Below are positions 3,647 to 20,590 of a DNA stretch of 54,315 bases, piece after piece. A program made the position numbers and the translations under genes. The notes below the pieces were generated by a model. The model saw nothing but the letters and a program-made list of their open reading frames with translations, was not told the origin of the DNA and did no database searches. Within the stretch, counting starts at the first letter, position 1; every line of letters begins with the position of its first letter. Source of the DNA: Chthoniobacterales bacterium (GTDB lineage: Bacteria; Verrucomicrobiota; Verrucomicrobiia; Chthoniobacterales; Terrimicrobiaceae). The stretch spans positions 1-54,315 of the forward strand of contig JACSRU010000121.1 in the NCBI GenBank assembly GCA_014879575.1. Direction: 5' to 3'.

Positions 3647-4605
3647 CAGTTTTTCCTCCCTCCGGTGGATGGCGTGCGTCCGCGACCACCGGCGACATGT
3701 TCGGCGGCAGACTGGGCCATCACGAACGTGACGGGCGTGTTTCTCCGCACCATCAGATTTACCGTATCCAGCTCGCGATTTGCATCCCGGCAATGTTCGA
3801 GCAATTGGCGCAACCGCCCGAGTTGTTCGGGAATGTCTTCCGTCGAAAATGTGATGTGGGCATTGCGGTCGCTGACCACGTCCACACAATACCCCTTCGA
3901 GATGTCCAGCGTGCGGATGTTCAAGAGGCATTCCGGCTGGCGGGCCACCTCGGCGATGAGCGCAAGCGCGCGCTGCAAATCCTCGCTGTGCAAAGGTTCC
4001 CCGTCGCGGATGTTCTCGCTGCGGACCCCGTAAATGATCGGAAGCTGATAGAATTCCGACTGGATGATTCGAGGTTTCATCAGGAAACCGGTTTCATCCA
4101 CAAGCAGGGATTTTTCCGGATCGAATGGATCGACCTCCTTCTCAAACGGGGCGACCCAGGCAACGGGCCGACGGGCGGTGAGTTTGATCGAAATCTCATC
4201 GGGCAGATGTCGCTCCATGGAAATCTCCTCAACCTGCGGAATGGCGCGAAGCGCCTTTTCCGCACGGGTGAGATCCACGCGGAAAATGTTGTCTCCCTCC
4301 TTGATGCCTGTTTCGGCGAGCGCTTCCTCGCGACTCAGAATTCCATCGAGATCCAGTGTCACCCGACGGAGGGTGTAGGCGGGATTATCATAGAAAAACT
4401 TGTCGAGCATCGTGGAGATTCCGAGCCAGCCGACCACGCAGACAACCACCAGAAGACTGACCGCCCAGAAGACAGAGCTGATTTTTTGCCTTCGCTGACG
4501 GCTGGCGGTCGTGTGGCGGACCTTCACATTGAGAAGGTGCTGGCCTTGTCCCGCAGGATGGAGCCTTCGGTTGCCACGAGAAGAATGTGAGAAACGGCGG
4601 ATCAT
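3646..4605 (-). CDS. ftsQ: cell division protein FtsQ (POTRA domain)
   Basis: Bitopic membrane protein of the divisome that links early and late division proteins through FtsL/FtsB. The 319-residue protein has a basic cytoplasmic N-terminus (1-42), one membrane segment near 43-65 and a POTRA-like region, where VTLDLDGILSREEAL and the FRVDLTRAEKALRAIPQVEEISMERHLPDEISI stretch (shown here only by its ends, FRVDLT and DEISI) are characteristic. A poorly conserved beta domain follows. Its start overlaps the ddl stop by 4 nt and its stop overlaps the ftsA start by 1 nt. FtsQ is weakly conserved in sequence, so the call leans on fold features and on the canonical ddl-ftsQ-ftsA-ftsZ order. Confidence 0.88.
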   Translation of the reverse strand: MIRRFSHSSRGNRRLHPAGQGQHLLNVKVRHTTASRQRRQKISSVFWAVSLLVVVCVVGWLGISTMLDKFFYDNPAYTLRRVTLDLDGILSREEALAETGIKEGDNIFRVDLTRAEKALRAIPQVEEISMERHLPDEISIKLTARRPVAWVAPFEKEVDPFDPEKSLLVDETGFLMKPRIIQSEFYQLPIIYGVRSENIRDGEPLHSEDLQRALALIAEVARQPECLLNIRTLDISKGYCVDVVSDRNAHITFSTEDIPEQLGRLRQLLEHCRDANRELDTVNLMVRRNTPVTFVMAQSAAEHVAGGRGRTPSTGGRKN

Positions 4606-5522
4606 GGGCTTCTTTTTTGCAGGGAGAGACCCGCGATTTCTTCGCAGAGCGCGGAAAAATCAAGTCCGACCACGGCGGCGGCCTTCGGCAGCAGGCTGGT
4701 TTCCGTCATCCCGGGAATCGTGTTGATCTCAAGGACATTTAAGGACCCATCGGGAGCCAGAAGAATGTCCACTCGGGAATAAACTTCGAGGGAAAGGGCC
4801 CGGCAGGCCGCCAGTGCCGCCGACTGAACGGCGGCAGTCGCCCCGGGGGAAATATGCGCCGGCACATGATACTCGGAAGCCCCCTTGGTATATTTGTGAT
4901 CGTAATCGTAGAATCCTTCGTTCGGAATGATTTCGATGACGGGGAGAGCTTCGCTGCCAAGAATCCCGACCGTCAGTTCACGCCCTGGGAAAAACTCTTC
5001 CACAAGAACACGATCCCCATAAAGGAAACAATCCTCGAGGGCGGCGGGAATTTCTTCCGGTGAGCGGACGATGTGAATGCCGACACTGGAACCCTGTCGG
5101 GGGGCCTTGAGAACGCAGGGAAATTTCCAATCCGCCGGTTCGTTCCTGCGGAGCGTAAACCAGGCGGAGGTCGGAACCCCGGCACGGGCGAAGCATTCCT
5201 TTGACTCAATTTTGTCAAAGGCCACGCGGCTGGCGGCCGCCCCCTCGCCGGTATAGGGAACTCCCAGGCCGTCGAGATAGGCCTGCACTTCGCCATCCTC
5301 ACCGAATGTTCCGTGAATCATGTTGTAAACAAGCCGCGTGTCAGCGGGCAGGCTGAACCCCGGCCCCGCGACATCCAGATCGGATACCCGGGCACCGCAT
5401 TTGCGAAGCGCCGCCGCCACGGCGGCACCGGAGCGCAGGGAAACCTCCCGTTCCTTTCCCGGCCCCCCCATCAGTAAAACGACCGGCAGATCTTTGAGAA
5501 TCCCCTCGTAATGCCTTTTCAT
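4602..5522 (-). CDS. ddl: D-alanine--D-alanine ligase
   Basis: ATP-grasp enzyme that joins two D-alanines for the pentapeptide used by MurF. It has 306 residues, the usual length. Visible motifs are GGPGKEREVSLRSG near the N-terminus, HGTFGEDGEVQAYLD, the ATP-grasp PCVLKAPRQGSSVGI, LVEEFFPGRELTVG, EIIPNEGFYDYDHKY and the metal-binding end VLEINTIPGMTETSLLPK. The gene lies between murC-murB and ftsQ and overlaps each by 4 nt. This position is common in dcw clusters. Nothing is unusual in the sequence. Confidence 0.97.
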   Translation of the reverse strand: MKRHYEGILKDLPVVLLMGGPGKEREVSLRSGAAVAAALRKCGARVSDLDVAGPGFSLPADTRLVYNMIHGTFGEDGEVQAYLDGLGVPYTGEGAAASRVAFDKIESKECFARAGVPTSAWFTLRRNEPADWKFPCVLKAPRQGSSVGIHIVRSPEEIPAALEDCFLYGDRVLVEEFFPGRELTVGILGSEALPVIEIIPNEGFYDYDHKYTKGASEYHVPAHISPGATAAVQSAALAACRALSLEVYSRVDILLAPDGSLNVLEINTIPGMTETSLLPKAAAVVGLDFSALCEEIAGLSLQKRSP

Positions 5523-7807
5523 GGATCCACCCCCACAATTTGAACTTCTGTTTCCAAATGGATTCCCCGCTCGCGGGCGGCAGCCGCCTGGATTTCCTCA
5601 ATGAGGGTGAGCACCTCGTCGGCCGTTGCCCCGCCATCGTTAACGATAAAGTTGCCATGCACTTCCGAAACCCGTGCGTGTCCAACCGTAAAGTTTTTGA
5701 AGCCCAGTTCCTCGATCAGGCGGCCTGCGGGAATGGGTTCCGGGTTTTTGAAAATGCAACCGGCACTCGAGGCAACCGGCTGGGAGGCCCTTCTCTTGGC
5801 AGCGGAAGTTTCCATCAGGCGGTCAATCTCATCCCGGTTTGTGGGCCGACCTTTGAGCACGGCTGAAAGGGCATAATTCTGCCGCAACATCGGCACGCTC
5901 CGGTAATGGATCTCGATTTCAGACGGGCTGCGGGTGAAGATGTTTCCATCCTGGTCACAAAATCTGACGCGCACAACCTGGTCAAACGTCTGGGAGCCCA
6001 TGGCGCCGGCATTCATGCGGAGACCCCCGCCAAGATTGCCGGGGATCCCCTCCATCCACTCGAATCCTCCGAGACTCGAAGCGCGGGCGAGCGAGGCAAG
6101 TTGTTTGAATTTTACTCCCACTCCGGCAGTGATTTCGTCCCCGTTGACTTCCTGGCGGAGAAACTCTCCCCGCGCCAGATGGGCGACAACGCCCGGAATG
6201 CCCCCATCGCGCACGAGAAGGTTGGATCCCCGTCCCATCACCAGGAAGGGAATCTCCTCGTCAAAACAGTATTGCACCAGATCGGCAAAGCCCTCTTCGG
6301 TCTCCGGTTCGACCCAGAACTGCGCGGGACCGCCAATGCGCATCGTGGTGTGCTTGGAGAGCGGTTCGTGAAGTTTGATGGTTCCGGGCCCCATCACGCC
6401 GAGCAGTTTTTCCCGCGTGGCAAGATCCTGCGCGAGTCGGGCACCGGCTTCATGGATATTTCCCGCGCCGAGGCTGATCACAAGATCCCCGTCCTCAAGG
6501 ATGACCGCCGCCGAACGGTGGATGCCCTCCACATCGGGAACATGCAGGGCGGAGGGATGTCCACAAGCCTTGAGCGCCTCGACAATTGTGGCGCCGGAAA
6601 CGCCGGGAATCGGTTTTTCACTGGCCGCATAGACATCCGCGACAAAGACATGATCCGCGTCGTCAAACGCCCGGCCAAACTGGTCCTTCAAAGCCAGCGT
6701 ACGGGTGTAGCGATGCGGCTGGAACATCGCGAGAATCCGCTTCCATCCGCCCGTGCGCGCCGTTGCAAGCGTGGCGGCAATCTCGGTGGGATGGTGTCCA
6801 TAGTCGTCCACGAGAAGGTGAGTCGTTGATTCGTAGCGAATCTCGAAACGTCTTCTGGCTCCCCGAAACGTCTCGAGGGCCGCTGCAATCCGCTCGAAGG
6901 GAATCCCCAGTTCCATGGCCAGCGCGATGATCGCCAGCGCATTCACCGCATTATGTGCCCCCGGAATGTTGAGAACAATTTTCCCGAGCTTCGTGCCCCG
7001 CTGACTCACCGTGAACCGGGAGCGGAAATTCTCGGTTTTCAGTCCCTCGATCCGGTAATCGCAATCCGCCGCATGGCCATAGGAAATCCCCTTCGGATGC
7101 GCCGCGCAGACACGCCGGGCGCCGACATCGTCCCCGCAGAAAAACACCTGGCCCGAGGTCTGCGCGATGAGCCTTGCATAGACGGCGTCAATCGCGGCGA
7201 GATCCTTGTAGAAATCGAGGTGTTCGGGCTCGATGTTCAGAACAATTGCCAGGGTGGGATGGTAATTGATGAGCGTCCCATCACTCTCGTCTCCTTCCGC
7301 CACAAAATACTCACCTTCGGAATCCCAGCGGGCATTCGTCCCGAGAATCGGAATTTCCGCGCCAACGTAATGCGAGGGCTTGAGTCCGCCAAAGCGGAGC
7401 ACATGGGTCGCCATGGCGGAGGTCGTGGTTTTCCCATGCATCCCACAAATCACGATTCCCTTCTTGGCCGCCATGACCGCCGCAAGGGCGTCCGCCCGGC
7501 GGGCCATGGGGAGGCCGAGACGACGGGCCTCGTCAAAAGCCGGATTGCCCGACTTGATCGCGGAGGAATAGATCACGATCTCCGCGTCGCGCACGCTCTC
7601 CGCCGACTGGGACGCCGCGAAATCCAGGCCTTTTTTCTGAAGTCGCTCGACCTCGACTGTCACAACCTTGTCCGACCCGCTGACCCGGTGGCCAAGGGCA
7701 AGCAAAAGGGCGGCTATGCCGCTCATCCCGGATCCTGCGACCCCGATCAAATGAACCCGTTTCGCGGCCGGTCCAGTGAGTGCTTCCTGGAGTTCCTTCG
7801 GTGTCAT
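5519..7807 (-). CDS. MurC-MurB fusion: UDP-MurNAc--L-alanine ligase / UDP-MurNAc dehydrogenase
   Basis: One 762-residue protein carries two successive cytoplasmic steps of UDP-MurNAc-peptide synthesis in reverse pathway order. Residues about 15-455 are MurC: HLIGVAGSGMSGIAALL (dinucleotide-like loop), the ATP loop GMHGKTTTSAM, VVAEGDESDGT-like FVAEGDESDGT, and DDYGHHPTEI. Residues about 470-762 are MurB: TMRIGGPAQFW, MGRGSNLLVRDGG for FAD, GIPGNLGGGLRMNAGAMG, and SSAGCIFKNP. In the last motif Cys replaces the usual proton-donor Ser, a change also seen in other MurB proteins. No stop or frameshift separates the halves. It overlaps murG and ddl by 4 nt each. Confidence 0.95.
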   Translation of the reverse strand: MTPKELQEALTGPAAKRVHLIGVAGSGMSGIAALLLALGHRVSGSDKVVTVEVERLQKKGLDFAASQSAESVRDAEIVIYSSAIKSGNPAFDEARRLGLPMARRADALAAVMAAKKGIVICGMHGKTTTSAMATHVLRFGGLKPSHYVGAEIPILGTNARWDSEGEYFVAEGDESDGTLINYHPTLAIVLNIEPEHLDFYKDLAAIDAVYARLIAQTSGQVFFCGDDVGARRVCAAHPKGISYGHAADCDYRIEGLKTENFRSRFTVSQRGTKLGKIVLNIPGAHNAVNALAIIALAMELGIPFERIAAALETFRGARRRFEIRYESTTHLLVDDYGHHPTEIAATLATARTGGWKRILAMFQPHRYTRTLALKDQFGRAFDDADHVFVADVYAASEKPIPGVSGATIVEALKACGHPSALHVPDVEGIHRSAAVILEDGDLVISLGAGNIHEAGARLAQDLATREKLLGVMGPGTIKLHEPLSKHTTMRIGGPAQFWVEPETEEGFADLVQYCFDEEIPFLVMGRGSNLLVRDGGIPGVVAHLARGEFLRQEVNGDEITAGVGVKFKQLASLARASSLGGFEWMEGIPGNLGGGLRMNAGAMGSQTFDQVVRVRFCDQDGNIFTRSPSEIEIHYRSVPMLRQNYALSAVLKGRPTNRDEIDRLMETSAAKRRASQPVASSAGCIFKNPEPIPAGRLIEELGFKNFTVGHARVSEVHGNFIVNDGGATADEVLTLIEEIQAAAARERGIHLETEVQIVGVDP

Positions 7808-8922
7808 GTGGCCGCCTCCTTTACCGCCCGCTCCATTTCCTCCGCGAGACAGTTCGATGCGGAACCGCTGGAGATTCCCCCTGCGGCCACGGCCATGCGT
7901 TCGCGGCGCTGATCGTCACCCAGCAAATTGGATATCATGGCCGCGAGCCTCTCGGCACCGGTTTCCCCCTCCGCGAGGATCTCGGCCGCCCCGGCCTTCA
8001 CATAAATCCTGGCATTGGCGGTTTGATGGTCATCGGTCGCAAACGGATACGGAATCAGGATGGAAGGCAGGGAAAACCGGGAGATCTCGCTCAGGCTCGA
8101 AGCTCCCGCGCGGGAAAGAACCGCATCGGCCGCCGAGTAAGCCTCCTCCATCCGGTGATGGAATGGCGAGACATAGTGCGGAATGCCATCGCGCTGGTAG
8201 TTCGCGGCGGCCAGCCGATCGTCCCGTTCCCCGGTGAGGTGGATGATCTGGATCTCCGATCCGTGCAGGAGTGGAGCCGATTTGAACAGGAGCTGGTTGA
8301 TTCCCGACGCGCCCTGGCTGCCACCCATGACGAGAAGCGTTTTCCTCTCCGGATCCAGGTGGAACAGCTTTCGGGCGGAGGCCCGATCCATGGGCTGGCC
8401 CAGATTTTTTCTCACAGGGGTTCCGGTGACGACACATTGCGCACGGGGGAGCAATTGTCGGGCCTCCTCAAACCCAAGAAACACCTTGGATGCAAACTTG
8501 GCAGCCAGGCGGTTTGCCCTGCCGGGAATGGCGTTGGATTCGTGGATGAATGCGGGCAACCCGCGCATCCGCGCGGCAAGCACCGGCGCCGTCGAGGTAA
8601 ACCCTCCCATGCCAAGAACGACCGATGGACGAAACTTGCGATAGATTTTCCCACAGTGGGAAAAACTCTCCCAAAACCGGCGGACAAAACGCACAAAGGC
8701 CGGGGAAACGATCATGCTGGGCAGTCCGATGGAAGGAAGCTTTTCGGAGCGAAACTCCGGCCGGGCCTTGAGTGCCAGCGTGTCGATTTCCTTCTCGGAG
8801 ACAAAAAGCAGCACCTCGTGCCCGCGGGCGTGAAGGGCTTCAGCCACGGCGAGGCCCGGAAACAGGTGTCCGCCGGTCCCCCCACAGGCGATGACCGCCC
8901 GAAATGGTGGCCCCTTCGTCAT
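7804..8922 (-). CDS. murG: UDP-GlcNAc:lipid I GlcNAc transferase MurG
   Basis: Membrane-associated GT28 glycosyltransferase that turns lipid I into lipid II. The chosen ATG at 8922 overlaps the ftsW stop as ATGA and gives 372 residues beginning MTKGPPFRAVIACGGTGGH, the expected N-terminal glycine-rich loop. GMGGFTSTAP, HESNAIPGRANR, the second glycine-rich GGSQGASGIN and the donor-binding SRAGASSLSEIS are all present. The open frame runs about 94 codons further upstream, but that part lies inside ftsW in another frame and is not MurG-like. It overlaps murC-murB by 4 nt. Confidence 0.97.
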   Translation of the reverse strand: MTKGPPFRAVIACGGTGGHLFPGLAVAEALHARGHEVLLFVSEKEIDTLALKARPEFRSEKLPSIGLPSMIVSPAFVRFVRRFWESFSHCGKIYRKFRPSVVLGMGGFTSTAPVLAARMRGLPAFIHESNAIPGRANRLAAKFASKVFLGFEEARQLLPRAQCVVTGTPVRKNLGQPMDRASARKLFHLDPERKTLLVMGGSQGASGINQLLFKSAPLLHGSEIQIIHLTGERDDRLAAANYQRDGIPHYVSPFHHRMEEAYSAADAVLSRAGASSLSEISRFSLPSILIPYPFATDDHQTANARIYVKAGAAEILAEGETGAERLAAMISNLLGDDQRRERMAVAAGGISSGSASNCLAEEMERAVKEAAT

Positions 8923-10082
8923 AGACGCGGCTGGATCTTTGCCGTCAGGAGTGCCGGGGCCAGACGGGGCACCAGCGGCTTCCCCTGGCGGTGAATGTTG
9001 ATGAGAATTCCGATCATGAAAAGGCAGACCATGAGATTTGAACCACCGTAACTGATGAACGGGAGGGGCATGCCCTTGTTGGGAAGCAGGGCAGTCGTGA
9101 CTCCGATGTTCACCACGGCTTGGAACGTGATCATCATCACCGCCCCAAAGCCGAGGAGCAAGCCAAAGCGATCCCGGGCATTCGTGGCAACCAGGCAACC
9201 GCACAGACAGAGCAGAAGATACCCGGCCGTCGTCACCAGGGTGATCCTCAGGCCAAGTTCCTCGCCAATCATCGGAAAAATAAAATCCGTGTGGGCATAC
9301 GGGGTGTAGAGCATTTTTTGTCGTCCTTCTCCCAAGCCGAGTCCGCTCATGCCCCCCGAGCCAAAGGCGATCAGACCCTGGAGTTGCTGATAGAACTCGT
9401 TCGGATATTTTTCGGGATGAAGAAACGCCAACAGGCGTCCCTGCCGCTCGGTGATATTCATCGCCAACAAAAAAACGCCGGTCACCCCCAATGCGCCGAG
9501 CAGCAGCAATCCTCGCAACGCGGCGCCGGCCACAAACAGCATGACAAGACCCGTCGCCCCGATAAGCGCCGTGTTTCCGATGTCCACCTCGAAGACGATC
9601 GGCACCAGAAGAATCCCCAAAATTCCCATCGGCGCAAGGAAGCCCATGAGAAACCCCTGGGAGGTTGATTCAAATTTGGAAAACCACCAGGCCAGAAAAA
9701 ACAGGGCGCCAATTTTTGCCACCTCGCTGGGCTGGAGCGTGCCAATCCCGATGTTGATCCAGCGGGACGAACCATTGATCCGGAGTCCAACCGGCGGGAC
9801 AAAGCACAGGAGCAGAAGCACAAAGGCGCCACCGAACCAAATCCACCAGGTTCGTTCCCAGAAATGATAATCCATGTTGGCGGCAAAAACGGCGACGCCA
9901 AGTCCGATGCCCAGCCACAGGATCTGCCTCTTGACGAAGAAGTAGATGTCCCCGTGACTGTCCTGCGCAAAGGCACTCGTGCTGAAGAGCATCACAACTC
10001 CCAGAACGAGCAGAGCCGAGACGATCAACAGGAGAATGTGAATGCTGTGTTTTTGCATGCCGAAAGGTGAAATGCCAGACAC
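8919..10082 (-). CDS. ftsW: SEDS peptidoglycan glycosyltransferase FtsW
   Basis: Polytopic SEDS-family protein that polymerises septal peptidoglycan together with its partner transpeptidase FtsI. It is 387 residues long and shows about ten hydrophobic segments. Family motifs are RINGSSRWINIG, LQPSEVAKI, the periplasmic HTDFIFPMIGEELGL and the C-terminal LPFISYGGSNL. The start could be 10082 or the ATG at 10058 (MQKHSIHILL); both leave a short gap of a few dozen bases after the LysM gene, the widest junction in this part of the cluster. It overlaps murG by 4 nt. Confidence 0.96.
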   Translation of the reverse strand: MSGISPFGMQKHSIHILLLIVSALLVLGVVMLFSTSAFAQDSHGDIYFFVKRQILWLGIGLGVAVFAANMDYHFWERTWWIWFGGAFVLLLLCFVPPVGLRINGSSRWINIGIGTLQPSEVAKIGALFFLAWWFSKFESTSQGFLMGFLAPMGILGILLVPIVFEVDIGNTALIGATGLVMLFVAGAALRGLLLLGALGVTGVFLLAMNITERQGRLLAFLHPEKYPNEFYQQLQGLIAFGSGGMSGLGLGEGRQKMLYTPYAHTDFIFPMIGEELGLRITLVTTAGYLLLCLCGCLVATNARDRFGLLLGFGAVMMITFQAVVNIGVTTALLPNKGMPLPFISYGGSNLMVCLFMIGILINIHRQGKPLVPRLAPALLTAKIQPRL

Positions 10083-10119
10083 CGGAAGTCACTCCGCGGG
10101 CTTCCGGAGCGGATTCCGC

Positions 10120-11043
10120 TCAGGGGACAATGAGTTTCTGCCCGATTTGAAGTTTGGTGGGATCCTGGATGTTGTTTGCCTTAATCAGGTCGTTGTATTT
10201 GACCTTCAGTTTTTTGGCGATCGAGTAGGGATTATCCCCCTTGGCGACCGTGTAGGTTTTGTCCGCAGAGGCCGGGGGTTCCTCCGATTTCGCGACAGGG
10301 GCCGGTACGGTCTTTGTCACCGCCTGGGGCTCAACACCCTCTGCGGCCGACGCGGTCTTGCCTTCGGATGCCTTCCCGGCCGGGACCGGTTTCAGGGCGG
10401 TGGTCTTTTTCTCCGAAGTTGGCACAACCTCCGGCGATTTTTTCGGCGGGGTTGCTTTGCTTTCGACCGTTTTCCCAGCGAGGGCATCGGGCTTTGCGGC
10501 GGATGTCCTGGCGGGAATCTTCAGGATCTGACCGACACGAATTGCCGAGTTGGCAGTGATGCCGTTTGCCTGTTCGAGAGCTTCAACGGTTGTCTTTTGC
10601 GCTGCGGCAATGCGTGTCAGCGTGTCCCCCGCCAAAACCGTGTAGGCCGGCCCACCCGTATCCGCTTGCGTGCTGACAGGCAGCTTCGCCGCAGTCGTCG
10701 GGGCCGCCGGACGCTCCGGGACGGTTTTGGATGCCGCAGGGGAACTCTGGGCTTTCGTTTCCACCTCCGCCGCAGCAGATGCCGCCGACTGGGTGGCGAC
10801 CTCTTTTGCACTCCCCTTGGCGGCGCGCTGACTCTTCAGCGAGTTAAAGGCAAAAACCCCGCCGACGGCCAAAACGTGCAACACGAGCACGACCAGCAGC
10901 GCATGGGAAAATTTCATGTTCGGCTCGGCCTCGCCGTCATAATCCTCGAAATCCTTTTCCGTGGCGGCGGCGCGCGCATGAAGGGTTTTCACCATTCTGC
11001 GCGGGGTTCTGCGTGGTGTTGGTGGGCGTGGCATGGGCTTCAT
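10120..11043 (-). CDS. LysM-domain membrane protein inside the dcw cluster
   Basis: A 307-residue protein with a basic Pro/Arg-rich cytoplasmic start, one membrane segment near 47-66, a long Ala/Pro/Lys-rich low-complexity region, and two LysM domains at about 134-177 (YTVLAGDTLTRIAA) and 263-307 (YTVAKGDNPYSIAKKLKV). LysM domains bind N-acetylglucosamine chains, so it probably anchors in the inner membrane and contacts peptidoglycan in the periplasm. No catalytic domain is visible. The ATG at 11043 follows the murD stop by one base, and ftsW follows, so it is embedded in the operon. A divisome or septal peptidoglycan-sensing role is inferred from position only. Confidence 0.88.
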   Translation of the reverse strand: MKPMPRPPTPRRTPRRMVKTLHARAAATEKDFEDYDGEAEPNMKFSHALLVVLVLHVLAVGGVFAFNSLKSQRAAKGSAKEVATQSAASAAAEVETKAQSSPAASKTVPERPAAPTTAAKLPVSTQADTGGPAYTVLAGDTLTRIAAAQKTTVEALEQANGITANSAIRVGQILKIPARTSAAKPDALAGKTVESKATPPKKSPEVVPTSEKKTTALKPVPAGKASEGKTASAAEGVEPQAVTKTVPAPVAKSEEPPASADKTYTVAKGDNPYSIAKKLKVKYNDLIKANNIQDPTKLQIGQKLIVP

Positions 11044-11044
11044 T

Positions 11045-12379
11045 TTATGTGGATTGGGTTTTGGATGGAAGTTTGTGGGTGAGTGATTTGAAAAGGTTTC
11101 CGCGCTCTCCGTAGTTGCGAAACATGTCGAACGAGGAAGTGCCGGGGGAAAACAACACGACGTTGCCGGACTCCGCCAGATCGGCTGCCAGGCGGACTGC
11201 TTCCTGCAAATCTTTTGCCTTGTGGCAGGGAGTATTCCGCCAGGATCCGGCAATCCGATCCTTCATCTCTCCGATGAGGACCGCCGCCCGGACCCGCTCG
11301 CGAACCAGCGGCTCGATCGCATCAAATTCAAACCCCTTGTCCTTTCCTCCGGCAATCAAAATGATGGGGGCCCCCTGCGAACGGATCGCCATTTCCATGG
11401 CATCCAGATTTGTGGCCTTGGAGTCGTTGATCCAGCGGACTCCATCGCGCAAGCGCACAAACTCGCACCTGTGAACGGGCGCGGTGTATTGCGTGACGGC
11501 ACCCGCCAGGTGATCGAGATCCACGTCGAGCGCGCACCCAATGGCCAGTGCCGCCATCAGGTTCTCCGCGTTGTGAATCCCCTGCAGGCGGGTTTCGTTC
11601 TGGTCCAGAACTTTCCGGCCCTGAAAGCAAATCACGCTTCCTTCCAACGTAAAGTCCGCCTCTTTCCGATGGGCACTGAATGTGATCTTCCGGGCGGCCA
11701 GTGGCGGCAACTCGGAGGCCGCATTGACAATCGCGACATCCGACGCGGTTTGATTTTCAAAAATTCTGAGCTTGGCTTCGCGGTATTCCTTCATGCCCGG
11801 ATACCTGTCGAGGTGGTTGGGACTGAGATTCAGCCAGACGGACACTTGCGGGTGGAAGGTTTTGATGGTCTCCAGCTGGAAGGAACTGACCTCGAGGATC
11901 ATGACATCCAGCTCCTGGCTTGAGCGCACCGCCGTGGCGAACGGGAGGCCGATATTTCCGCTTGCCATCGTTCGCACTCCGCAGGTTTTCAGCATCTCCG
12001 TGGTCAGTTCCGTGGTGGTGGTCTTGCCGTTTGTTCCAGTGATGGCGACCGTTGGGCAGGTGCATTCCTCGAAGGCCAGCTCAAGCTCCCCGATGACGGG
12101 AACCCTTTTCGCGAGAACATTTCGCACCAGCGGCACAACGGGATCAATCCCCGGACTCAGCACTGCGATATCGTAAGGCGAAGGGTCGCCCTCGGCCTCC
12201 GCTCCGAGAAGGACACGGATTCCCCGCCCCTCCAAGCCGGCGGCTTTTTCGCGCAGGCCCGGGTTGTCGCCGCTTTCGCAGACCGTCACTGCCGCCCCCT
12301 CTTCGGACAATAGCAGGGCGGCAGCCTCACCGCTGTGACCGAGTCCGAGCACGACTGCATTTTTTCCGCTGTAGATCAT
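11045..12379 (-). CDS. murD: UDP-MurNAc-L-alanine--D-glutamate ligase MurD
   Basis: Cytoplasmic Mur ligase that adds D-glutamate. The protein has 444 residues, usual for MurD. The N-terminal Rossmann segment VLGLGHSGEAAALLL, the ATP loop AITGTNGKTTTTELT, the LNLSPNHLDRY motif, INDSKATNLDAME and the C-terminal IILIAGGKDKG are visible. The mraY stop abuts its ATG directly (TAAATG), and the LysM gene begins one base after its stop. No anomalies were seen. Confidence 0.97.
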   Translation of the reverse strand: MIYSGKNAVVLGLGHSGEAAALLLSEEGAAVTVCESGDNPGLREKAAGLEGRGIRVLLGAEAEGDPSPYDIAVLSPGIDPVVPLVRNVLAKRVPVIGELELAFEECTCPTVAITGTNGKTTTTELTTEMLKTCGVRTMASGNIGLPFATAVRSSQELDVMILEVSSFQLETIKTFHPQVSVWLNLSPNHLDRYPGMKEYREAKLRIFENQTASDVAIVNAASELPPLAARKITFSAHRKEADFTLEGSVICFQGRKVLDQNETRLQGIHNAENLMAALAIGCALDVDLDHLAGAVTQYTAPVHRCEFVRLRDGVRWINDSKATNLDAMEMAIRSQGAPIILIAGGKDKGFEFDAIEPLVRERVRAAVLIGEMKDRIAGSWRNTPCHKAKDLQEAVRLAADLAESGNVVLFSPGTSSFDMFRNYGERGNLFKSLTHKLPSKTQST

Positions 12380-13510
12380 TTAACGAAGCTTGAGAGTGGC
12401 AAGACCCAGGAGGGCGAAAAGAACGGACATGATCCAGAACCTGACGATCACGGTGTTTTCCTTCCATCCGCTGAGTTCGAAGTGGTGGTGCAGGGGCGAC
12501 ATTTTGATGATTCTCTTCCCCGTAAGCTTGAAACTTGCGACCTGCAGGATCACCGACAGAGCCTCGATGACAAACACGCCCCCGACGATGACCAGCAACA
12601 ACTCCTGCTTGCAGCAGATCGCCACGGCTCCGAGCATCCCCCCGATCGCCAGCGAACCGGTGTCTCCCATGAACATCCGCGCCGGGTGGGCATTCCACCA
12701 AAGAAACCCCAGACAGGCCCCGAGCAGGGCAACACACAGAACGGTCAGCTCCCCGGAATAGGCCACGAAAGGAACCTGAAGATAGGTGGCGGCCTTGATA
12801 TTCCCCGCAAGGTAAACCAACACCGCGTAAGTGGCGGCAACGGTGGCCGTGCAGCCGGTGGCAAGACCGTCCAGGCCATCGGTGAGATTCACCGCATTCG
12901 ACGTGCCGACAAGCACCAACAGATAAAAGACAAACGTCCCCCATCCGAGACTGAAAATGAGGGGCTCCTTGGAGAAGGGGATGTTCAATTGCTGGGCAAT
13001 TCCGGCAAGCTTCGGGTTGGTGAGAAAGTAAATGGTGAAAACCGCCGCCAACACGCATTGGAGGGCGAACTTCAGCCGACTGCTGATCCCGGCGGAGCTC
13101 TTTTTTGTCACCTTCAACCAATCATCATAAAAGCCGATGGAGCCAAGAAAGAGGGTGCTGAAAAGCACGAGCCAGACAAATTCGTTTTCCGGTTTCGCCC
13201 AGAGCAACGTTGAAAGAACGACGGATCCCACGAGAAGGATTCCCCCCATCGTTGGTGTTCCCTTTTTTGCGCCGTGAAGCTCGAACAATTTATGAACTTC
13301 CTCCTTGCTTCGGATCGGCTGGCCGAACTTCAGGGAAATCAGCTTTCGGATGACCCAATTCCCAAAAATCAGACTGATCAGAAAGGCTGTGATGCCCGCG
13401 CAGATCGCCCGGAATGTGATATAGGAAAAGACGTTGAATGCCTTGAAGAAGTCATTGTTGATTTCCTGGGTCTGCGCCCACTGGCTGAGGTTTGAAAGGT
13501 AATAAAGCAT
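12380..13510 (-). CDS. mraY: phospho-MurNAc-pentapeptide transferase MraY
   Basis: Polytopic membrane enzyme that transfers phospho-MurNAc-pentapeptide from UDP to undecaprenyl phosphate, making lipid I. Its 376 residues include GTPTMGGILLVG, FYDDWLKVTKK, the catalytic-region NLTDGLDGLATG, FMGDTGSLAIGG and MSPLHHHFELSGWKE. About ten hydrophobic segments are apparent. Its ATG overlaps the murF stop as TGATG, and its stop touches the murD start codon. Family assignment is secure. Confidence 0.97.
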   Translation of the reverse strand: MLYYLSNLSQWAQTQEINNDFFKAFNVFSYITFRAICAGITAFLISLIFGNWVIRKLISLKFGQPIRSKEEVHKLFELHGAKKGTPTMGGILLVGSVVLSTLLWAKPENEFVWLVLFSTLFLGSIGFYDDWLKVTKKSSAGISSRLKFALQCVLAAVFTIYFLTNPKLAGIAQQLNIPFSKEPLIFSLGWGTFVFYLLVLVGTSNAVNLTDGLDGLATGCTATVAATYAVLVYLAGNIKAATYLQVPFVAYSGELTVLCVALLGACLGFLWWNAHPARMFMGDTGSLAIGGMLGAVAICCKQELLLVIVGGVFVIEALSVILQVASFKLTGKRIIKMSPLHHHFELSGWKENTVIVRFWIMSVLFALLGLATLKLR

Positions 13511-14877
13511 CAGGAGTCGAAATGTTTCAGAACGGCTTCCATGCGGGCGGACCGGCTGCCCTTGACAAGCACGACATCGCCGGGATGCGCCAGATTCGAG
13601 AGCAGGAGGGCGGCGGAGGCCGCATCGTCCACTTCATGAACTCTCCCCAGTCCGGTTTCGCGCGCCGCATCCGCCAGAGGAAGCGTCTCCCTGCCGACCG
13701 TGATCAGGATGTCCACATTTTTCCCCGCCACCGTTCCGGTGCGGCGGTAACCTTCGTGTTCGTAGTCGCCGAGTTCCCCCATGCGGCCCAGGACCGCAAT
13801 TCTCCGTCCGCCACCGGGCAGAGCCCGCAGCGTGCATAACGCGGCGACCATCGAATCGGGATTGGCATTATACGTGTCATCGAGAAAGGAAATCCCCCGA
13901 ATGCTCCGATGCTGGAGCCTTCCTCCGGTAAGGCGTGTTTTGGAGAGGCCCGAGACCGCAACCTCGGGGGAAATTCCGAATTCAACACCCGCCGCAACGG
14001 CTAGAAGGGCATTGCGAACCATGTGCGCGCCATGACAGGTGAGACTGGCCGGGAGGGACTGCCCTCCGGCATGCAGAACAAAAGAGCACCCCTCCCTGGT
14101 CTCGACAAGAGACGAAGCGGTCACACTCCCTGAGGTGAGGCCCGCACGGACGACGCGCGCCCGGGTCCGCGAGGCAAGAAAATCCGACTGGTCCTCCTCC
14201 GAGGAGAGCACAACGAATCCCTCCGGCGGGACCGCAGCCACCAAAGCACTCTTTTCGAGGGCGATCGCTTCGCGGGTTTTCAGAAATTCGATGTGTGCGA
14301 TGCCGATATTCGTGACAATCGCGGCATGCGGCTTCGCCAGGGCGGCCAGAGGGGCGATCTCTCCGGGATGGTTCATTCCGATCTCCCAGACCGCTGCGGT
14401 ATCCGCTGAACTGGCGGAGAGAATCGAGAGCGGGACGCCGATGTGGTTGTTCAGGTTGCCTTCCGTCTTAACGACCTTGTAGCCTGCGGACAGGACGCCC
14501 GCCGCAAATTCCTTGGTGCTCGTTTTTCCGTTGCTTCCGGTGATGCAAAGAACTTTCAGACTCAAACGGGATCGCCAGGCGGTCGCCAAACGGGTCAGGG
14601 CCTCCCATCCGGATTCCGCAAACAGAACCGGAAAATTCGAAGGCAGAGCGGAGGCCGCCGACTCCTTCTCGACCAGCACGGCGGCGGCTCCCCGCGCAAC
14701 GGCATCGCCCGCGAAAAGATTGCCGTCAAAATTGTCGCCCCGGAGCGCGACATACAAATCCCCAGGCTGGAGGGTTCGGGTATCCTTGGAGACTTTGGAA
14801 ACACGCAGGGTTCCATCCCCCCGAAGGAGTTTGGCTCCGGACATTTCCGCGATTTCTTTCAGTGGCAGGAGATCCAT
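13510..14877 (-). CDS. murF: UDP-MurNAc-tripeptide--D-Ala-D-Ala ligase MurF
   Basis: Final cytoplasmic Mur ligase, which adds the D-Ala-D-Ala made by Ddl. The ATG at 14877 (MDLLPLKEIAEM) is one base after the murE stop and gives 455 residues; the frame continues upstream only within murE. Features include the N-terminal VSKDTRTLQPGDLYVALRG, the ATP loop CITGSNGKTSTKEF, a GMNHPGEI motif, NIGIAHIEFL and DDTYNANPDSM. The C-terminal domain ends with VVLVKGSRSARME. It overlaps the mraY start by one base. Confidence 0.97.
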   Translation of the reverse strand: MDLLPLKEIAEMSGAKLLRGDGTLRVSKVSKDTRTLQPGDLYVALRGDNFDGNLFAGDAVARGAAAVLVEKESAASALPSNFPVLFAESGWEALTRLATAWRSRLSLKVLCITGSNGKTSTKEFAAGVLSAGYKVVKTEGNLNNHIGVPLSILSASSADTAAVWEIGMNHPGEIAPLAALAKPHAAIVTNIGIAHIEFLKTREAIALEKSALVAAVPPEGFVVLSSEEDQSDFLASRTRARVVRAGLTSGSVTASSLVETREGCSFVLHAGGQSLPASLTCHGAHMVRNALLAVAAGVEFGISPEVAVSGLSKTRLTGGRLQHRSIRGISFLDDTYNANPDSMVAALCTLRALPGGGRRIAVLGRMGELGDYEHEGYRRTGTVAGKNVDILITVGRETLPLADAARETGLGRVHEVDDAASAALLLSNLAHPGDVVLVKGSRSARMEAVLKHFDS

Positions 14878-14878
14878 T

Positions 14879-16348
14879 TTACAGGGTTTTTTTGTATGCC
14901 ATCGCCCGTTCGGCGACTTCGACATCGTCGAAGGGAATTCTGCGATCCGAAAATTCCTGGTAGTTTTCGTGGCCCTTGCCGGCAATGAGGACGATGTCGC
15001 CAGGTTCCGCGAGATGGATGGCCTGCCGGATGGCCTCCTCGCGGTCGGTGATTTTCTCGAAATTTGTCCTCCGCAATCCCACAGCAACATCCGCGAGAAT
15101 GGCTTCGGGATCCTCCCGGCGGGGATTGTCGGATGTCAGGATTGTCCAATCCGAGAATTCCTCCGCTGCGGCAGCCATGAGCGGGCGCTTGGCACGGTCG
15201 CGGTCGCCGCCGCATCCGAAGACGGTGAGAAGCCGGGCCGGCTTCAAATCCTTGAGCGTGCGGAGAACATTTTTCAGGGCATCGTCCGTGTGGGCATAAT
15301 CCACAAACACATGAAAGTTGCGCTTCCCGGGCACACGCTCCAACCGGCCGGGCACCTGGGGAGCCGAGGCCAAGGCGGCAATGGCACCTCGCAGTTCGAC
15401 CCCGCAGACCGTCGCTGCGGCAAGGGCTCCAAGAACATTGTAAATATTGAAAAGCCCGATGAGGGGCGTGCGCACGAGGAAGCTTTTCTTTTTTGCCTCG
15501 AGTTGGAAGACCGACCCGTTGCCGTCGAACCGGATCGCGCTCGCACGAAAGTCCACCCCGAGTCCGCGTCCGAAAGTCAGGGTTTTGAGTGTTCGTTTTC
15601 CGAGCTTTCCCACGAGCAGGTGTCCATACCGGTCATCCACGTTGACGACAGCTTTCCCCTTCTTTTCCGTCTGCGAGGCCAGCCCCTCGAAGAGAAGCGT
15701 CTTTGCCGCAAAATAGGCGTCCATCGACTGGTGGTAATCGAGGTGATCCTGTGTCAGGTTGGTAAAGACTGCCGCATCGAATGCGATGCCGCGCGCGCGG
15801 TGCTGCACCAGAGCATGGCTGGAAACCTCCATGGCGACCGCCCTTGAGCCACTGTCCCGCATGCGGGAGAGAAGTTCCTGAAGGTCCGTCGCTTCCGGCG
15901 TTGTCCTCGGCGCGGGAATTTCCTCGGCTCCCACGACGTATTTCACCGTGCCAAGGAGTCCGCAGCGGAGCGAGGCGGAATCCAGCAGGTGCTTCAGGAG
16001 GAACGCGGTGGTCGTCTTCCCATTGGTTCCCGTCACGCCCACGCATTTCATGGAACGATCGGGGTGTCCGTAAAATGTTGCGGCGATATCCGCCATGGCC
16101 GCCCGGGCATTCGGCACCCGAATGACCGGACAGGCGCACGCCCCGGGATCGGCTTCCGTGACAACCGCCGCGCTGCCATGACCCACCGCCTGCTGCACAA
16201 ACTCCGCACCGTTCGTTTTCGTCCCGGGCAACGCAAAGAAAAGACTCCCTTCCCCCGCCCGACGGGAGTCGTAGGAGAGCGACCGGATCTCAGGATTCGC
16301 GAGGATTTCCGGAAGCCCGGCGGACTGGAGCAACGCATTGAGCCTCAT
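14879..16348 (-). CDS. murE: UDP-MurNAc-dipeptide--diaminopimelate ligase MurE
   Basis: Mur ligase that adds the third peptide residue. The ATG at 16348 (MRLNALLQSAG) gives 489 residues and lies four bases after the ftsI stop. Visible motifs are the substrate-binding SYDSRRAGEGSLFFALPG, the ATP loop VTGTNGKTTTAFLL, NLTQDHLDYH, VFVDYAHTDDAL and the amino-acid selectivity motif DNPR. The DNPR motif is the established marker for meso-diaminopimelate rather than lysine. That predicts DAP-type peptidoglycan, which suits the two L,D-transpeptidases at 22948 and 53093. Confidence 0.97.
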   Translation of the reverse strand: MRLNALLQSAGLPEILANPEIRSLSYDSRRAGEGSLFFALPGTKTNGAEFVQQAVGHGSAAVVTEADPGACACPVIRVPNARAAMADIAATFYGHPDRSMKCVGVTGTNGKTTTAFLLKHLLDSASLRCGLLGTVKYVVGAEEIPAPRTTPEATDLQELLSRMRDSGSRAVAMEVSSHALVQHRARGIAFDAAVFTNLTQDHLDYHQSMDAYFAAKTLLFEGLASQTEKKGKAVVNVDDRYGHLLVGKLGKRTLKTLTFGRGLGVDFRASAIRFDGNGSVFQLEAKKKSFLVRTPLIGLFNIYNVLGALAAATVCGVELRGAIAALASAPQVPGRLERVPGKRNFHVFVDYAHTDDALKNVLRTLKDLKPARLLTVFGCGGDRDRAKRPLMAAAAEEFSDWTILTSDNPRREDPEAILADVAVGLRRTNFEKITDREEAIRQAIHLAEPGDIVLIAGKGHENYQEFSDRRIPFDDVEVAERAMAYKKTL

Positions 16349-16352
16349 GAAA

Positions 16353-18113
16353 TCAATTTGCCCTTTCCTTTTTTTGATCGTCCATGGCGAGCGGCCCCGG
16401 GAGTTCCGCGCGAAGTGCCGGGACCAGATCCAGATACCGCGCAGCGCGCTCTCCGATCCGGGAAAACACGGGAGCCGCAAGGAGTCCCCCGTAATTCAAA
16501 TTTGAGGCAACCTTGGCGTCGTCAAGCAGGACCAAGCAGACAAACCGGGGATTCTCCACGGGAAGATAACCCACGAAGGAGACCACATACTTTCCCGGGG
16601 CATACCCTCCGGTGGGACTCGCCTTCTGGGCAGTCCCGGTCTTTCCGGCGGTCGTAAAGCCTGCGACCTTCGCCAGTTGGGCGGTCCCCCCCTCCGCCAC
16701 AACACCCGAGAGAGCCCTGCCAACAAAGTTTGCAGTTTTTTTTGAGACGACCTCCCGGAGCATCTTTGGGGGCTTGTCCTGGACAACCCGCCCGTCCGCA
16801 TCCTCGATCGAACGGACAATCTGCGGGGCAAACAACCTTCCCCCATTGGCAACGACCGACATGCCCATGGTGATCTGCAACGGAGTGGCGGCGACCGATT
16901 GGCCCATCGCCATGCGGGTGATCGTCAACTTGTCCCAACGGTGCGGAGGATGCACAAGACCCGGAATTTCTCCGGGAAGTTCGATGCCGGATTTTTCGCC
17001 AAAGCCGAAACGCCGGACGTATTCGTAGTATTTGGCGTCCTTCATCATGAGCGCCATTTTTGCGGAGCCAATGTTCGAGGATTTCACAAGGATGTCGGCC
17101 ACGCCCATCGCGCCGTAACCGTGGTGGTCGCGCAAAATTTTCCCGCCGTAGGAAAATGCGCCGTTCTCGCAAAAGATCGAGGTCTTGTCATTGACGATTC
17201 CCTCGTTGATTGCGCCGGATGCCACGACAATTTTGAATGTGGATCCCGGCTCCACCATGTCCAGAATTGCGCGATTTTTCATCTCCTCGGGTTTGGCCTC
17301 GCCCGGGCGATTCGGATCAAAACACGGGCGGCTGGCCATGGCGAGGATCTCTCCGGTGTTCGGATCCATGAGAATGGCCGCCGCCATTTCGAGTTTGAGA
17401 TCCCGAAAGGCCGTATCCAGCTCCTCCTCAAGGATCGCCTGGAGTCCCATGTCAATTGTCAGCCTCACATTCAGGCCATGCACCGCCGGTTCCTCCTGTC
17501 CGCGATAGAGCATGATCTCCCTTCCGGTTCGGTCGTGCTCGATATACCGGTAGCCATCCTGCCCCCGGAGGTGGCTCTCCATCGTCATCTCCACGCCCTG
17601 AATTCCGCTTCCCTGATTGTTCAGAAACCCGAGCACGTGCCCAAGCATCTGTCCGTTCGGATATGTCCGCACGGCATCCTTCTCGAAGTAGATCCCGCGC
17701 AGATTGGCCGCCTGGATCGCCGCCTTGAGGGCCACCGCCTTTTCCTCCGGAAATTCGCGGCGGAGCACGATGTATTTTTTCTCGCTGGAGAGCCGGGCCC
17801 GCAGGTCTCCCTCGTCCTGTTCAAGGAAGGGGGCGGCGATTTTCGCCAGGGCGGCGGGATCCTGGATGTGGGAACCGTCAGCAACCACCGTGCGGACCGG
17901 AAGGTTCGAAGCGAGCAACTCGCCATTGCGGTCGAAGATCAACCCGCGCCGCGCGTGGATGACCATGCGCATCGTGTGCTTTTCCGCCGCCTTCTTGGCA
18001 TAGGATTGATGCTTGGTAACCTGGAGGTCCACCAATCGAACCGAGTAGGCGGTGAAAACCGCCGCGACGACAGCACAGACAACGCCCGCGCGTGTGCGTG
18101 CCGTCCACCTCAT
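16353..18113 (-). CDS. ftsI: division-specific transpeptidase FtsI (PBP3, class B PBP)
   Basis: Septal D,D-transpeptidase, partner of FtsW. The 586-residue protein has one N-terminal membrane segment (about 9-27), a PBP dimer domain (RRGLIFDRNGELLASNL), and a transpeptidase domain with the catalytic STFK motif in EPGSTFKIV, the SSN motif in VKSSNIGSAKM and the KTGTA motif in TAGKTGTAQKAS. No C-terminal PASTA domain is evident. Its start overlaps the ftsL-like stop as ATGA, and murE starts four bases downstream. Confidence 0.96.
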   Translation of the reverse strand: MRWTARTRAGVVCAVVAAVFTAYSVRLVDLQVTKHQSYAKKAAEKHTMRMVIHARRGLIFDRNGELLASNLPVRTVVADGSHIQDPAALAKIAAPFLEQDEGDLRARLSSEKKYIVLRREFPEEKAVALKAAIQAANLRGIYFEKDAVRTYPNGQMLGHVLGFLNNQGSGIQGVEMTMESHLRGQDGYRYIEHDRTGREIMLYRGQEEPAVHGLNVRLTIDMGLQAILEEELDTAFRDLKLEMAAAILMDPNTGEILAMASRPCFDPNRPGEAKPEEMKNRAILDMVEPGSTFKIVVASGAINEGIVNDKTSIFCENGAFSYGGKILRDHHGYGAMGVADILVKSSNIGSAKMALMMKDAKYYEYVRRFGFGEKSGIELPGEIPGLVHPPHRWDKLTITRMAMGQSVAATPLQITMGMSVVANGGRLFAPQIVRSIEDADGRVVQDKPPKMLREVVSKKTANFVGRALSGVVAEGGTAQLAKVAGFTTAGKTGTAQKASPTGGYAPGKYVVSFVGYLPVENPRFVCLVLLDDAKVASNLNYGGLLAAPVFSRIGERAARYLDLVPALRAELPGPLAMDDQKKERAN

Positions 18114-18478
18114 TGACGCAGTCCCTCGTTAAAGGCCGTGCGCAACACGCCATCTTCCGTGGCCCGAACCGGCGGCATCAGGCGGGCAATCACGTTGTCC
18201 TGGATCGGCTTCAGGGAGATAAATCCGTCGGCAATCCTTTGCTGGAGGGAACGGCGCGAGGAAAGTTCCGTCACACGGGCCAGCAGGCTTTCATTCTGGG
18301 CGCGCAGATCGGCGATCCGACGCTCCACCTGACGGATTTCCTCCGACAGGGTGAACTGCTGGGTTTTGATGTAGAGGAAGAACAGTCCACCGACTCCGAC
18401 AAGGAATGCCAGAAGAAGGCATCGGACCAGTGTGGTGAGGTGGACGGGATTGACTTGTTTTTTGCGATTCGTGTTCAT
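18110..18478 (-). CDS. ftsL: FtsL-like cell division protein
   Basis: Small bitopic protein (122 residues) with a basic N-terminus, one membrane segment near 17-38 (CLLLAFLVGVGGLFFLYI) and a following periplasmic coiled coil (EEIRQVERRIADLRAQNESL is its core). FtsL proteins share almost no sequence, so this rests on topology, size and position between rsmH and ftsI. In known systems FtsL joins FtsB and FtsQ and activates FtsWI. The ATG at 18478 overlaps the rsmH stop by 4 nt; the stop overlaps the ftsI ATG by 4 nt. Confidence 0.82.
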   Translation of the reverse strand: MNTNRKKQVNPVHLTTLVRCLLLAFLVGVGGLFFLYIKTQQFTLSEEIRQVERRIADLRAQNESLLARVTELSSRRSLQQRIADGFISLKPIQDNVIARLMPPVRATEDGVLRTAFNEGLRQ

Positions 18479-19443
18479 GGGGTTGTCTCCTGTAGTTTTT
18501 CCACAACACGGAGTTTGGCGCTCCGGGAGCGGGGGTTTTCTGTCGTTTCCTCGACGCCGGCGTCCATCGGATGCGGGGTCAGGAGTCGAAAAATGCGGGC
18601 GGGATTCCGGCGGGGTTCCGGCCACTCCGGGCGGTCGATCCATTCCTGGCTGCGATCGCGGAAGAAATGTTTGACGATCCGGTCCTCAAGCGAATGAAAC
18701 GTGATCACGGCCAGTCTGGCACCGGGCGCCAGGAGGGTCGGCAGAGTTTCCAGTGCCTCCCGAAGGGCACCCAATTCGTCATTTACCGCGATGCGCAGCG
18801 CCTGAAACACCCGCGTTGCGGGGTGTCGGCCACTTGTGCGTGGAGCCACGGAGGAGACGGCGGCGGCAAGATCGAAAGTTGTCTGGAACGGATGCCGAAC
18901 CCGCAGTGCGCCGATCCGTGCCGCAATCTGACTGGCGCGCGGCTCCTCGCCATATTCCCGAAAGATTTTCGCCAGATCAGCGACAGGGGCGGTATTGACA
19001 AGATCGGCGGCGCTGGGTGTCGAGGAACGGCTCATCCGCATGTCCAGCGGACCATCCTTCAGCAGCGCAAATCCCCGTTCTGCGGTATCCAACTGGTGGG
19101 AGGAAACCCCGATATCCAGCAGGGCTCCATCGAGCTTGCGCTGCACACCCAGACCGGCGAGAACACTTTCGGCCTCGCGGAAGTTTGCCTCCACGAGTCG
19201 AAGCCGATCACCGAATCGGGCCAGCCTGCGCCTCGCTTCCTCCATCGCCTCGGGATCCTGGTCGCACCCGATCACCTCCGCTCCGGACTCCAGCAAACGC
19301 TCCGTGTGCCCTCCCCCGCCGACAGTTCCGTCCAGGAACAGCATGCCGGGAGCGGGGCGCAGCAACGCAACGACCTCGTCCAACATCACGGGCACATGGT
19401 AGGCAGACCCGCTCTCGTCAGTTTTTCCCATGGGGATTTCCAT
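18475..19443 (-). CDS. rsmH: 16S rRNA (cytosine-N4) methyltransferase RsmH (MraW)
   Basis: SAM-dependent enzyme that methylates 16S rRNA C1402 and is the usual second gene of dcw clusters. Motifs are YHVPVMLDEVV, the SAM-binding DGTVGGGGHTE, LLDIGVSSHQLD, ERGFALLKDGPLDMRM, RVFQALRIAVNDEL and FHSLEDRIVKHFF. The start is uncertain: ATG codons lie at 19503, 19476, 19470, 19443 and 19431. I chose 19443 because RsmH proteins normally begin shortly before the HxPV motif. It overlaps ftsL by 4 nt. Confidence 0.95.
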   Translation of the reverse strand: MEIPMGKTDESGSAYHVPVMLDEVVALLRPAPGMLFLDGTVGGGGHTERLLESGAEVIGCDQDPEAMEEARRRLARFGDRLRLVEANFREAESVLAGLGVQRKLDGALLDIGVSSHQLDTAERGFALLKDGPLDMRMSRSSTPSAADLVNTAPVADLAKIFREYGEEPRASQIAARIGALRVRHPFQTTFDLAAAVSSVAPRTSGRHPATRVFQALRIAVNDELGALREALETLPTLLAPGARLAVITFHSLEDRIVKHFFRDRSQEWIDRPEWPEPRRNPARIFRLLTPHPMDAGVEETTENPRSRSAKLRVVEKLQETTP

Positions 19444-19611
19444 TAGGTCTTCGCAGGCCAAGAAGTTCATAAGCATTCCGGGGTCGAATTTTGATTGTGT
19501 CATGACCAGACGGCTTTCCGTCGCCGGCTTTCCCGGTTCGAAAACCGAAGAAAAATGACCGGCCACCTTTTGCCATCAGGGCGTGTTCCTCATTGTGAAA
19601 TTGCCTTCATG
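19444..19611 (-). other. mraZ-rsmH spacer with two small hairpins
   Basis: This 168-bp spacer is the longest gap in an otherwise tightly packed cluster. On the minus strand it contains CGGTT-TTCG-AACCG (19534-19547), a UUCG-loop hairpin, and soon after ACGG-AAAG-CCGT (19510-19521). Neither is followed by a T-run, so they are not clear terminators. The spacer may simply hold the rsmH leader, or part of the RsmH N-terminus if an earlier ATG is used. Confidence 0.5.
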
Positions 19612-20067
19612 TTACAAGCCGCACTCCTCGGCGGCGGACTGCAAGGCCGCCCGATTGGCGGCTTCGGTTGCCTGGAAGTTCTCGGTGGACCAGATTTCGA
19701 TCCGGTCGTGGGATCCAAGGAAAACGACCTCGCCTCCCAGTCTCGCCCATTCACAGTGGGACTCGGGAAGGAGAATGCGCCCCTGCTTGTCGGTCGTCAC
19801 CGCGCGCGCCGAGGCATAGAAGGCCCGAATCGCCGCCCGCTTCTGCTGGGGAGTCAACCGCGTGGAGCTCTGGAAACGTTGAGCCCATTTCCCCAGCTCG
19901 TCCTCCCGCATGATCATCAACAAGGGCTCATTGGGGTGGGGCGCCACATGGAACTCATCCCCTTCGCCGGATACCCACGCAGACGGAATCGCAACACGCT
20001 TCTTCGCGTCGAGTGACCGCGGAAACGTGCCAGAATACGTCGTTGGCTTTGTGGATTCCTGACCCAT
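19612..20067 (-). CDS. mraZ: transcriptional regulator MraZ
   Basis: AbrB-fold DNA-binding protein that represses dcw clusters, the first gene of this cluster. The 151-residue protein has the two tandem half-domains with their DxxxR motifs: [14 protein letters not shown] near residue 18 and [13 protein letters not shown] near 90. The N-terminal extension [10 protein letters not shown] is slightly longer than in typical MraZ. Four putative MraZ boxes lie 29-63 bp upstream (20096-20130), so autoregulation is likely. It is divergent from rpsO. Confidence 0.95.
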
Positions 20068-20076
20068 GTTCTAGTA

Positions 20077-20130
20077 GGTATAAAGTGGCCTATCCCGCCA
20101 CAGTGCCCCACTTTTCACCACTTTTCCCCA
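20077..20130 (-). promoter_or_regulatory. MraZ-binding repeat array and candidate dcw promoter
   Basis: On the minus strand four pentamers TGGGG, TGGTG, TGGGG and TGGCG start exactly 10 bp apart (plus-strand 20126-20130, 20116-20120, 20106-20110, 20096-20100). This matches the known MraZ operator, TGGGN repeats separated by five bases. A candidate -10 element TATACC lies just downstream at 20077-20082, which would put the start of transcription only a few bases before the mraZ ATG. No clear -35 was seen. The boxes are direct sequence observations; their function is inferred from characterised MraZ systems. Confidence 0.82.
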
Positions 20131-20182
20131 CAACGGTCAATAGAAATCTCCTCAGTTTTTGGGATTTTTTAAGAAAGGATGT

Positions 20183-20228
20183 TCGGATAAAATTCGCTCG
20201 TATCCGACCCTTGGGAATCATCGATTCC
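20183..20228 (+). promoter_or_regulatory. rpsO leader with two stem-loops (candidate S15 autoregulatory RNA)
   Basis: Two perfect inverted repeats lie 80-130 bases before the rpsO start codon: TCGGATA/TATCCGA (20183-20189 with 20201-20207, 11-nt loop) and GGAATC/GATTCC (20214-20219 with 20223-20228, 3-nt loop). Ribosomal protein S15 autoregulates through structured leaders in several bacterial groups, but those leaders differ between phyla. This assignment is inference. The second hairpin could instead be a protein-binding palindrome. Confidence 0.4.
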
Positions 20229-20309
20229 GGCACCAAAATCATTTTCGGTCTTGCCATCCGGAGTTTGTCATGGAATCCTCTGCCCCCTCAAACACACAAA
20301 AAAAGAAAA

Positions 20310-20570
20310 ATGGCAAAGGCAGCACATGCAGAAGTCGATACGCTTCGACTCCACGAAAAAGACACCGGCAGCGCAGACGTTCAAATCGCGTTGCTGACCA
20401 AACGAATCAACGAACTCACCGAGCATCTCAAAGCCAACGTAAAGGACCACTCGTCCCGCCGCGGCCTGCTCAAACTCGTCGCCACCAGGCGGCGACTCCT
20501 CGATTACCTGAAGCGGACGGCTGCCGATCGCTATCAAGTGGTCCTCGAGAAACTTCAACTGCGTAAATAA
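20310..20570 (+). CDS. rpsO: 30S ribosomal protein S15
   Basis: Primary 16S rRNA-binding protein of the small subunit platform, 86 residues, close to the usual 88-89. The family core [39 protein letters not shown] (given by its ends) and RRRLLDYLK is evident. The ATG at 20310 follows an A-rich stretch with no strong ribosome binding site. It is followed by an intrinsic terminator and then pnp, the classic rpsO-pnp order. Upstream the frame stays open but is not S15-like. Confidence 0.97.
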
Positions 20571-20590
20571 CGCAATAAATCCACCGCGAT

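Follow-up and report, generated by a model that had tools for sequence, protein, structure and literature searches.

The MraZ protein represses the dcw cluster via repeats located upstream of its own gene in both E. coli and M. genitalium (PMC8475190, PMC7761207). For E. coli, both PMC7761207 and PMC8475190 credit the operator at mraZ1p to Eraso et al. 2014. In B. cenocepacia the dcw promoter contains four 7-nt repeats separated by 3-nt spacers, giving a 10-bp period, and MraZ binds the corresponding fragment in vitro (PMC7761207). More recently, in 2026, a cryo-EM structure became available that shows M. genitalium MraZ in complex with a '4 box promoter' (PDB 9sz7; see also 9r4j). Our search of the literature found no paper joining Verrucomicrobia, mraZ and 'division cell wall'.

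The window analysed here, a 54,315-nucleotide stretch of a Chthoniobacterales genome, contains a locus that resembles each of these systems and differs from each in detail. The layout is similar in E. coli, where TGGGN boxes at 10-bp steps lie between the promoter and the mraZ start, at the head of the dcw cluster. However, the array of E. coli K-12 comprises three boxes and begins 38 bp past TTGACA, which places it beyond the -10, whereas the window has four boxes, the first 10 bp behind a -35-like TTGACC. Four repeats with a 10-bp period are also what is seen in B. cenocepacia, but there they are reported to follow the -10 and to overlie the start site (PMC7761207), while the array in the window begins right behind the -35-like hexamer. 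With M. genitalium the locus shares a four-box target and, judging from a predicted model, the same protein fold, although the Mollicutes boxes read AAAGTG[T/G] (PMC8475190) and the two MraZ proteins are distant, at 25% identity. A previous reading made from the sequence only had set the four boxes here against the three described in E. coli. A departure from what is known finds no support in this, as four boxes are already known from B. cenocepacia and PDB 9sz7, and four is the commonest number in the order.

The box array and the genes around it

On the minus strand upstream of mraZ, the motifs TGGGG, TGGTG, TGGGG and TGGCG follow one another with exact 10-bp phasing (box starts 20130, 20120, 20110 and 20100; Table 1), just as the sequence-only reading had described. 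A G precedes each of the four boxes, giving a common core of GTGG. An MraZ operator is expected to have at least three direct repeats that follow one another at 10-bp steps and share a GTG(G/T) core, and to lie at the dcw promoter ahead of the mraZ ATG; here, four GTGG repeats lie upstream of that ATG, at the predicted dcw promoter. The array occupies 20130-20096 and is separated from the mraZ start codon at 20067 by a gap of 28 bp. While the interval originally given, 20077-20130, does contain the boxes, its extent is too long, since 20077-20095 holds no further TGG box. Read along the minus strand toward mraZ, the region runs TTGACCGTTG TGGGGAAAAG TGGTGAAAAG TGGGGCACTG TGGCGGGATA GGCCACTTTATACCTACTAGAAC and then ATG. 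The leader immediately before mraZ (20068-20085) has no Shine-Dalgarno-like stretch. A AACCTAAA-like stretch in the mraZ leader is common to many members of the family.

Table 1. Positions of the boxes, candidate promoter elements and genes in the window
Feature	Position	Strand	Basis or remark
MraZ box 1, TGGGG	20126..20130	-	sequence; TGG invariant in four congeners
MraZ box 2, TGGTG	20116..20120	-	starts 20 bp behind start of -35-like hexamer
MraZ box 3, TGGGG	20106..20110	-	sequence; TTGAC-anchored profile
MraZ box 4, TGGCG	20096..20100	-	sequence; TTGAC-anchored profile
Fifth 10-bp register, GGCCA, not a box	20086..20090	-	sequence
-35-like hexamer TTGACC	20135..20140	-	its start precedes that of box 1 by exactly 10 bp; putative promoter role
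Possible weak -10, TGAAAA	20112..20117	-	17-bp spacing from TTGACC; putative, poor consensus match
TTGCCA, candidate -35 of rpsO	20251..20256	+	shared with congeners; putative role
rpsO (S15), divergent	20310..20570	+	PF00312, E 1.8e-31
mraZ, 151 aa	19612..20067	-	PF02381, TIGR00242, PDB MraZ chains, alignment
rsmH/mraW	18475..19566	-	PF01795, E 2.3e-100; open frame, true start probably inside
ftsL/divIC-like	18110..18643	-	PF04977, 22.5 bits, below cut-off; cluster position
ftsI (PBP transpeptidase)	16353..18113	-	PF00905, PF03717
murE	14879..16480	-	translation and position (ORF list)
murF, mraY, murD, LysM-type ORF, ftsW, murG, murC-murB fusion, ddl, ftsQ-type ORF, ftsA, ftsZ	1089..15090	-	LysM-type and ftsQ-type ORFs by translation and position only

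The protein encoded next to the array passes the Pfam cut-off for PF02381 (E 3.9e-14) and carries two DxxxR motifs, D20-R24 and D93-R97, both of which are invariant in the nine sequences aligned. Solved MraZ chains are the top fold match of its predicted model (mean pLDDT 85; Z 16-17), with M. genitalium MraZ in PDB 9sz7 giving a Z of 16.1 and an rmsd of 2.7 over 136 residues. Its score against TIGR00242, which is still its best NCBIfam match, is 68.1 bits and falls short of the equivalog cut-off of 98.35, a value that serves as an annotation threshold and not as a biological definition. Given the Pfam cut-off, the fold, the motifs and the position heading the dcw cluster, this low score suggests to us that the protein is a divergent MraZ.

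Downstream of mraZ and collinear with it lies a complete dcw cluster, whose genes are presumably expressed as one transcript. Several features of this cluster were recorded in passing. MurC and MurB are encoded by one fused reading frame of 762 aa (5519-7807), an ORF of LysM type (10120-11253) is placed between murD and ftsW within the cluster, and FtsZ (1089-2537) is divergent, scoring 233.5 bits against a TIGR00065 cut-off of 295.2.

Conservation of the phased boxes

To judge from its named relatives, the window belongs to Verrucomicrobiota, close to Chthoniobacter and 'Spartobacteria'. Of 58 genomes drawn from the genus, family and order, 53 yielded mraZ, and the order-level sample contained 50 readable mraZ upstreams, the window's own included. 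Searching these for phased boxes, a comparison that the sequence-only reading had proposed for TGGNG, recovered TGG boxes at 10-bp steps in 50/50, with at least three boxes in 46 (four boxes in 30 upstreams, three in 13, five in 2, six in 1 and two in 4). As a control, the other step sizes from 6 to 15 bp gave best runs of one or two boxes and only two single runs of three. Among four congeners the distance from the boxes to the ATG is identical and both the TGG cores (12/12) and TTGAC (5/5) are invariant; further upstream, 4 of 100 bases are. In relatives the boxes persist and stay with mraZ, and the genes that neighbour them upstream vary. Related arrays turned up in further families of the phylum as well as in Ezakiella and two Gemmatimonadota; at the level of the phylum the simple motif missed the mraZ ORF in 23 of 68 loci, so that phylum-wide counts are incomplete.

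The arrays themselves show some variety. At the next 10-bp step after the last TGG box, TGT (mostly TGTCA) stands in 19 of the 50 upstreams and is likely a variant box. The longest TGG array that we saw in the order has six phased boxes before mraZ (L037 / L167, G035). Several families of the phylum have AGG (often TAGG) in place of TGG, with the 10-bp step unchanged, in 4 to 7 copies (L096, with seven, and L056, L074, L075, L091, L098 and L102), which suggests, from the sequences, a drift of MraZ box specificity. The mraZ upstreams of L108, L115 and L122 have 10-bp-phased GTG cores in which GTGG boxes are mixed with GTGTCA boxes.

Promoter register and competing explanations

In 34 of the 50 upstreams a TTGAC element is present 5-45 bp ahead of the first box; shuffled sequence gives 1.8 such cases (maximum 6). 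Of these 34 upstreams, 27 place TTGAC 10, 20, 30 or 40 bp from the first box, and six more are one base off. The remaining upstreams come mostly from one genus (f1g2), in which TTGC replaces TTGAC about 9 bp before box 1, and outside the order many families show a spacing of 8-11 bp between TTGAC and the first box. When the upstreams were anchored on TTGAC, the +20 and +30 registers, those of boxes 2 and 3 in the window, proved the most constant in the order, with +40 somewhat less so and +10 often absent.

The downstream half of the putative promoter is less clear. The candidate -10, TGAAAA, is embedded in box 2 and its spacer, and the profile columns there are A-rich; A-rich spacers are also part of the MraZ motif, which weakens these columns as support for a -10. 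A scan of 19400-20700 with the sigma-70 consensus returned no promoter and no good -10 hexamer, and a search of the same interval against Rfam gave nothing over the curated threshold. In the window's own genome TTGAC-N18-TANNNT occurs 16 times, against 47 for the reversed pattern, leaving a canonical -35/-10 pair unsupported. Because there is no recognisable -10 and no enrichment of TTGAC/TANNNT, conservation is the one basis on which a promoter is assigned here.

On this basis the boxes in Verrucomicrobiota seem to span the stretch from the spacer through the -10 region to the start. We propose, tentatively and with a little less than even confidence, that the geometry in this phylum differs from that of E. 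coli and Burkholderia: the boxes would begin some 10 or 20 bp past the -35 and keep helical register with it, and one box would sit over the -10 region, so that the core promoter would be fully occluded, and the weak -10 may need another factor. We regard such a tight interlock of boxes and promoter as a modest variant, and as only a slightly new point.

Could the array have arisen by chance in G-rich sequence, without any function? The box cores are, after all, only three or four bases long. Yet TGGNG-N5-TGGNG-N5-TGGNG has two overlapping matches in the window, both within the array, where shuffled windows lead us to expect 0.03, and simulation puts the expected number of runs of four TGG at 10-bp steps at 0.017 per window. 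Taken with the conservation in 50/50 upstreams and its step-size control, which refutes a chance origin, these figures make its probability practically nil. The exact three-box pattern has no second occurrence across the 3.6-Mb genome, and a search of the genome allowing one mismatch gave 38 matches, the array accounting for two, where the reversed pattern gave 18. Of the more box-like sites from this search, two were considered as further MraZ targets: one lies within a long ORF, the other where an ORF begins behind a regulator gene. Both were taken as chance, and neither makes a convincing second target. Conservation of the G-rich repeat could in principle reflect a DNA G-quadruplex, as a motif of this kind has been reported in the S. 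aureus mraZ promoter and similar ones in other bacteria (PMC11796246). We consider this extremely unlikely at the present locus. The conserved unit is TGG with a free fourth base (G in 95 of 183 boxes), and none of the 50 arrays has four GGG tracts at the box positions, a count that speaks to folds built from GGG tracts and does not address a weaker two-tetrad fold from GG tracts. As the fourth base is free and four GGG tracts occur in 0/50 arrays, recognition of GTGG by a protein would explain the conservation better than a quadruplex.

The array also lies in the intergenic region that mraZ shares with rpsO, and the sequence-only reading had suggested that MraZ may touch the rpsO promoter too. 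For the boxes to control the divergent rpsO-pnp genes as well, or mainly, seems very unlikely. Adjacency of the two genes was seen in the window's genome only, as the search detected no rpsO in the flanks of any of the about 130 other mraZ loci (flanks mostly 1.5-3 kb, shorter at contig ends), and in congeners the boxes are kept although other genes sit upstream of mraZ. Conversely, no three-box run was seen in the rpsO upstreams of five relatives, comprising two congeners and three other family members (the closest congener, G003, was outside this set). Furthermore, rpsO has a conserved candidate element of its own, TTGCCA, which two congeners carry 56-61 bp ahead of the rpsO ATG and which, in the window, lies about 120 bp away from box 1. 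Because of the adjacency seen in one genome only, the box-free rpsO upstreams and this separate TTGCCA element, the suggestion finds no support and control of rpsO by MraZ is unlikely.

Proposed control of the dcw cluster

We read the four GTGG boxes as an MraZ operator, a reading in which we have high confidence and according to which MraZ would block the dcw promoter. In the model that we propose, a ring-shaped oligomer of MraZ, the product of the adjoining downstream gene, binds the boxes, with successive subunits placed on one face of the helix at one box per turn. The oligomer would cover a stretch of DNA that opens right after the -35-like TTGACC and ends at about the predicted transcription start, and RNA polymerase would be blocked at the promoter heading the mraZ-rsmH-ftsL-ftsI-mur-ftsW-ftsA-ftsZ cluster. 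The assignment as MraZ operator made in the sequence-only reading is well supported by comparative evidence, with boxes in every readable upstream of the order, linked to mraZ whatever gene lies upstream of it, and an intact MraZ. The autorepression of the dcw cluster that it also predicted is probable, given the conserved boxes and the complete collinear cluster.

With these results the range of the MraZ operator would grow to include a little-studied phylum, in which it is conserved throughout an order. They also agree with the idea that autorepression is an old and widespread rule for the division and cell-wall cluster. The fixed register between the -35-like element and the boxes offers a simple, testable reason for where the boxes are placed, and the varied box numbers and cores across the phylum provide a natural data set for the study of MraZ-DNA recognition.
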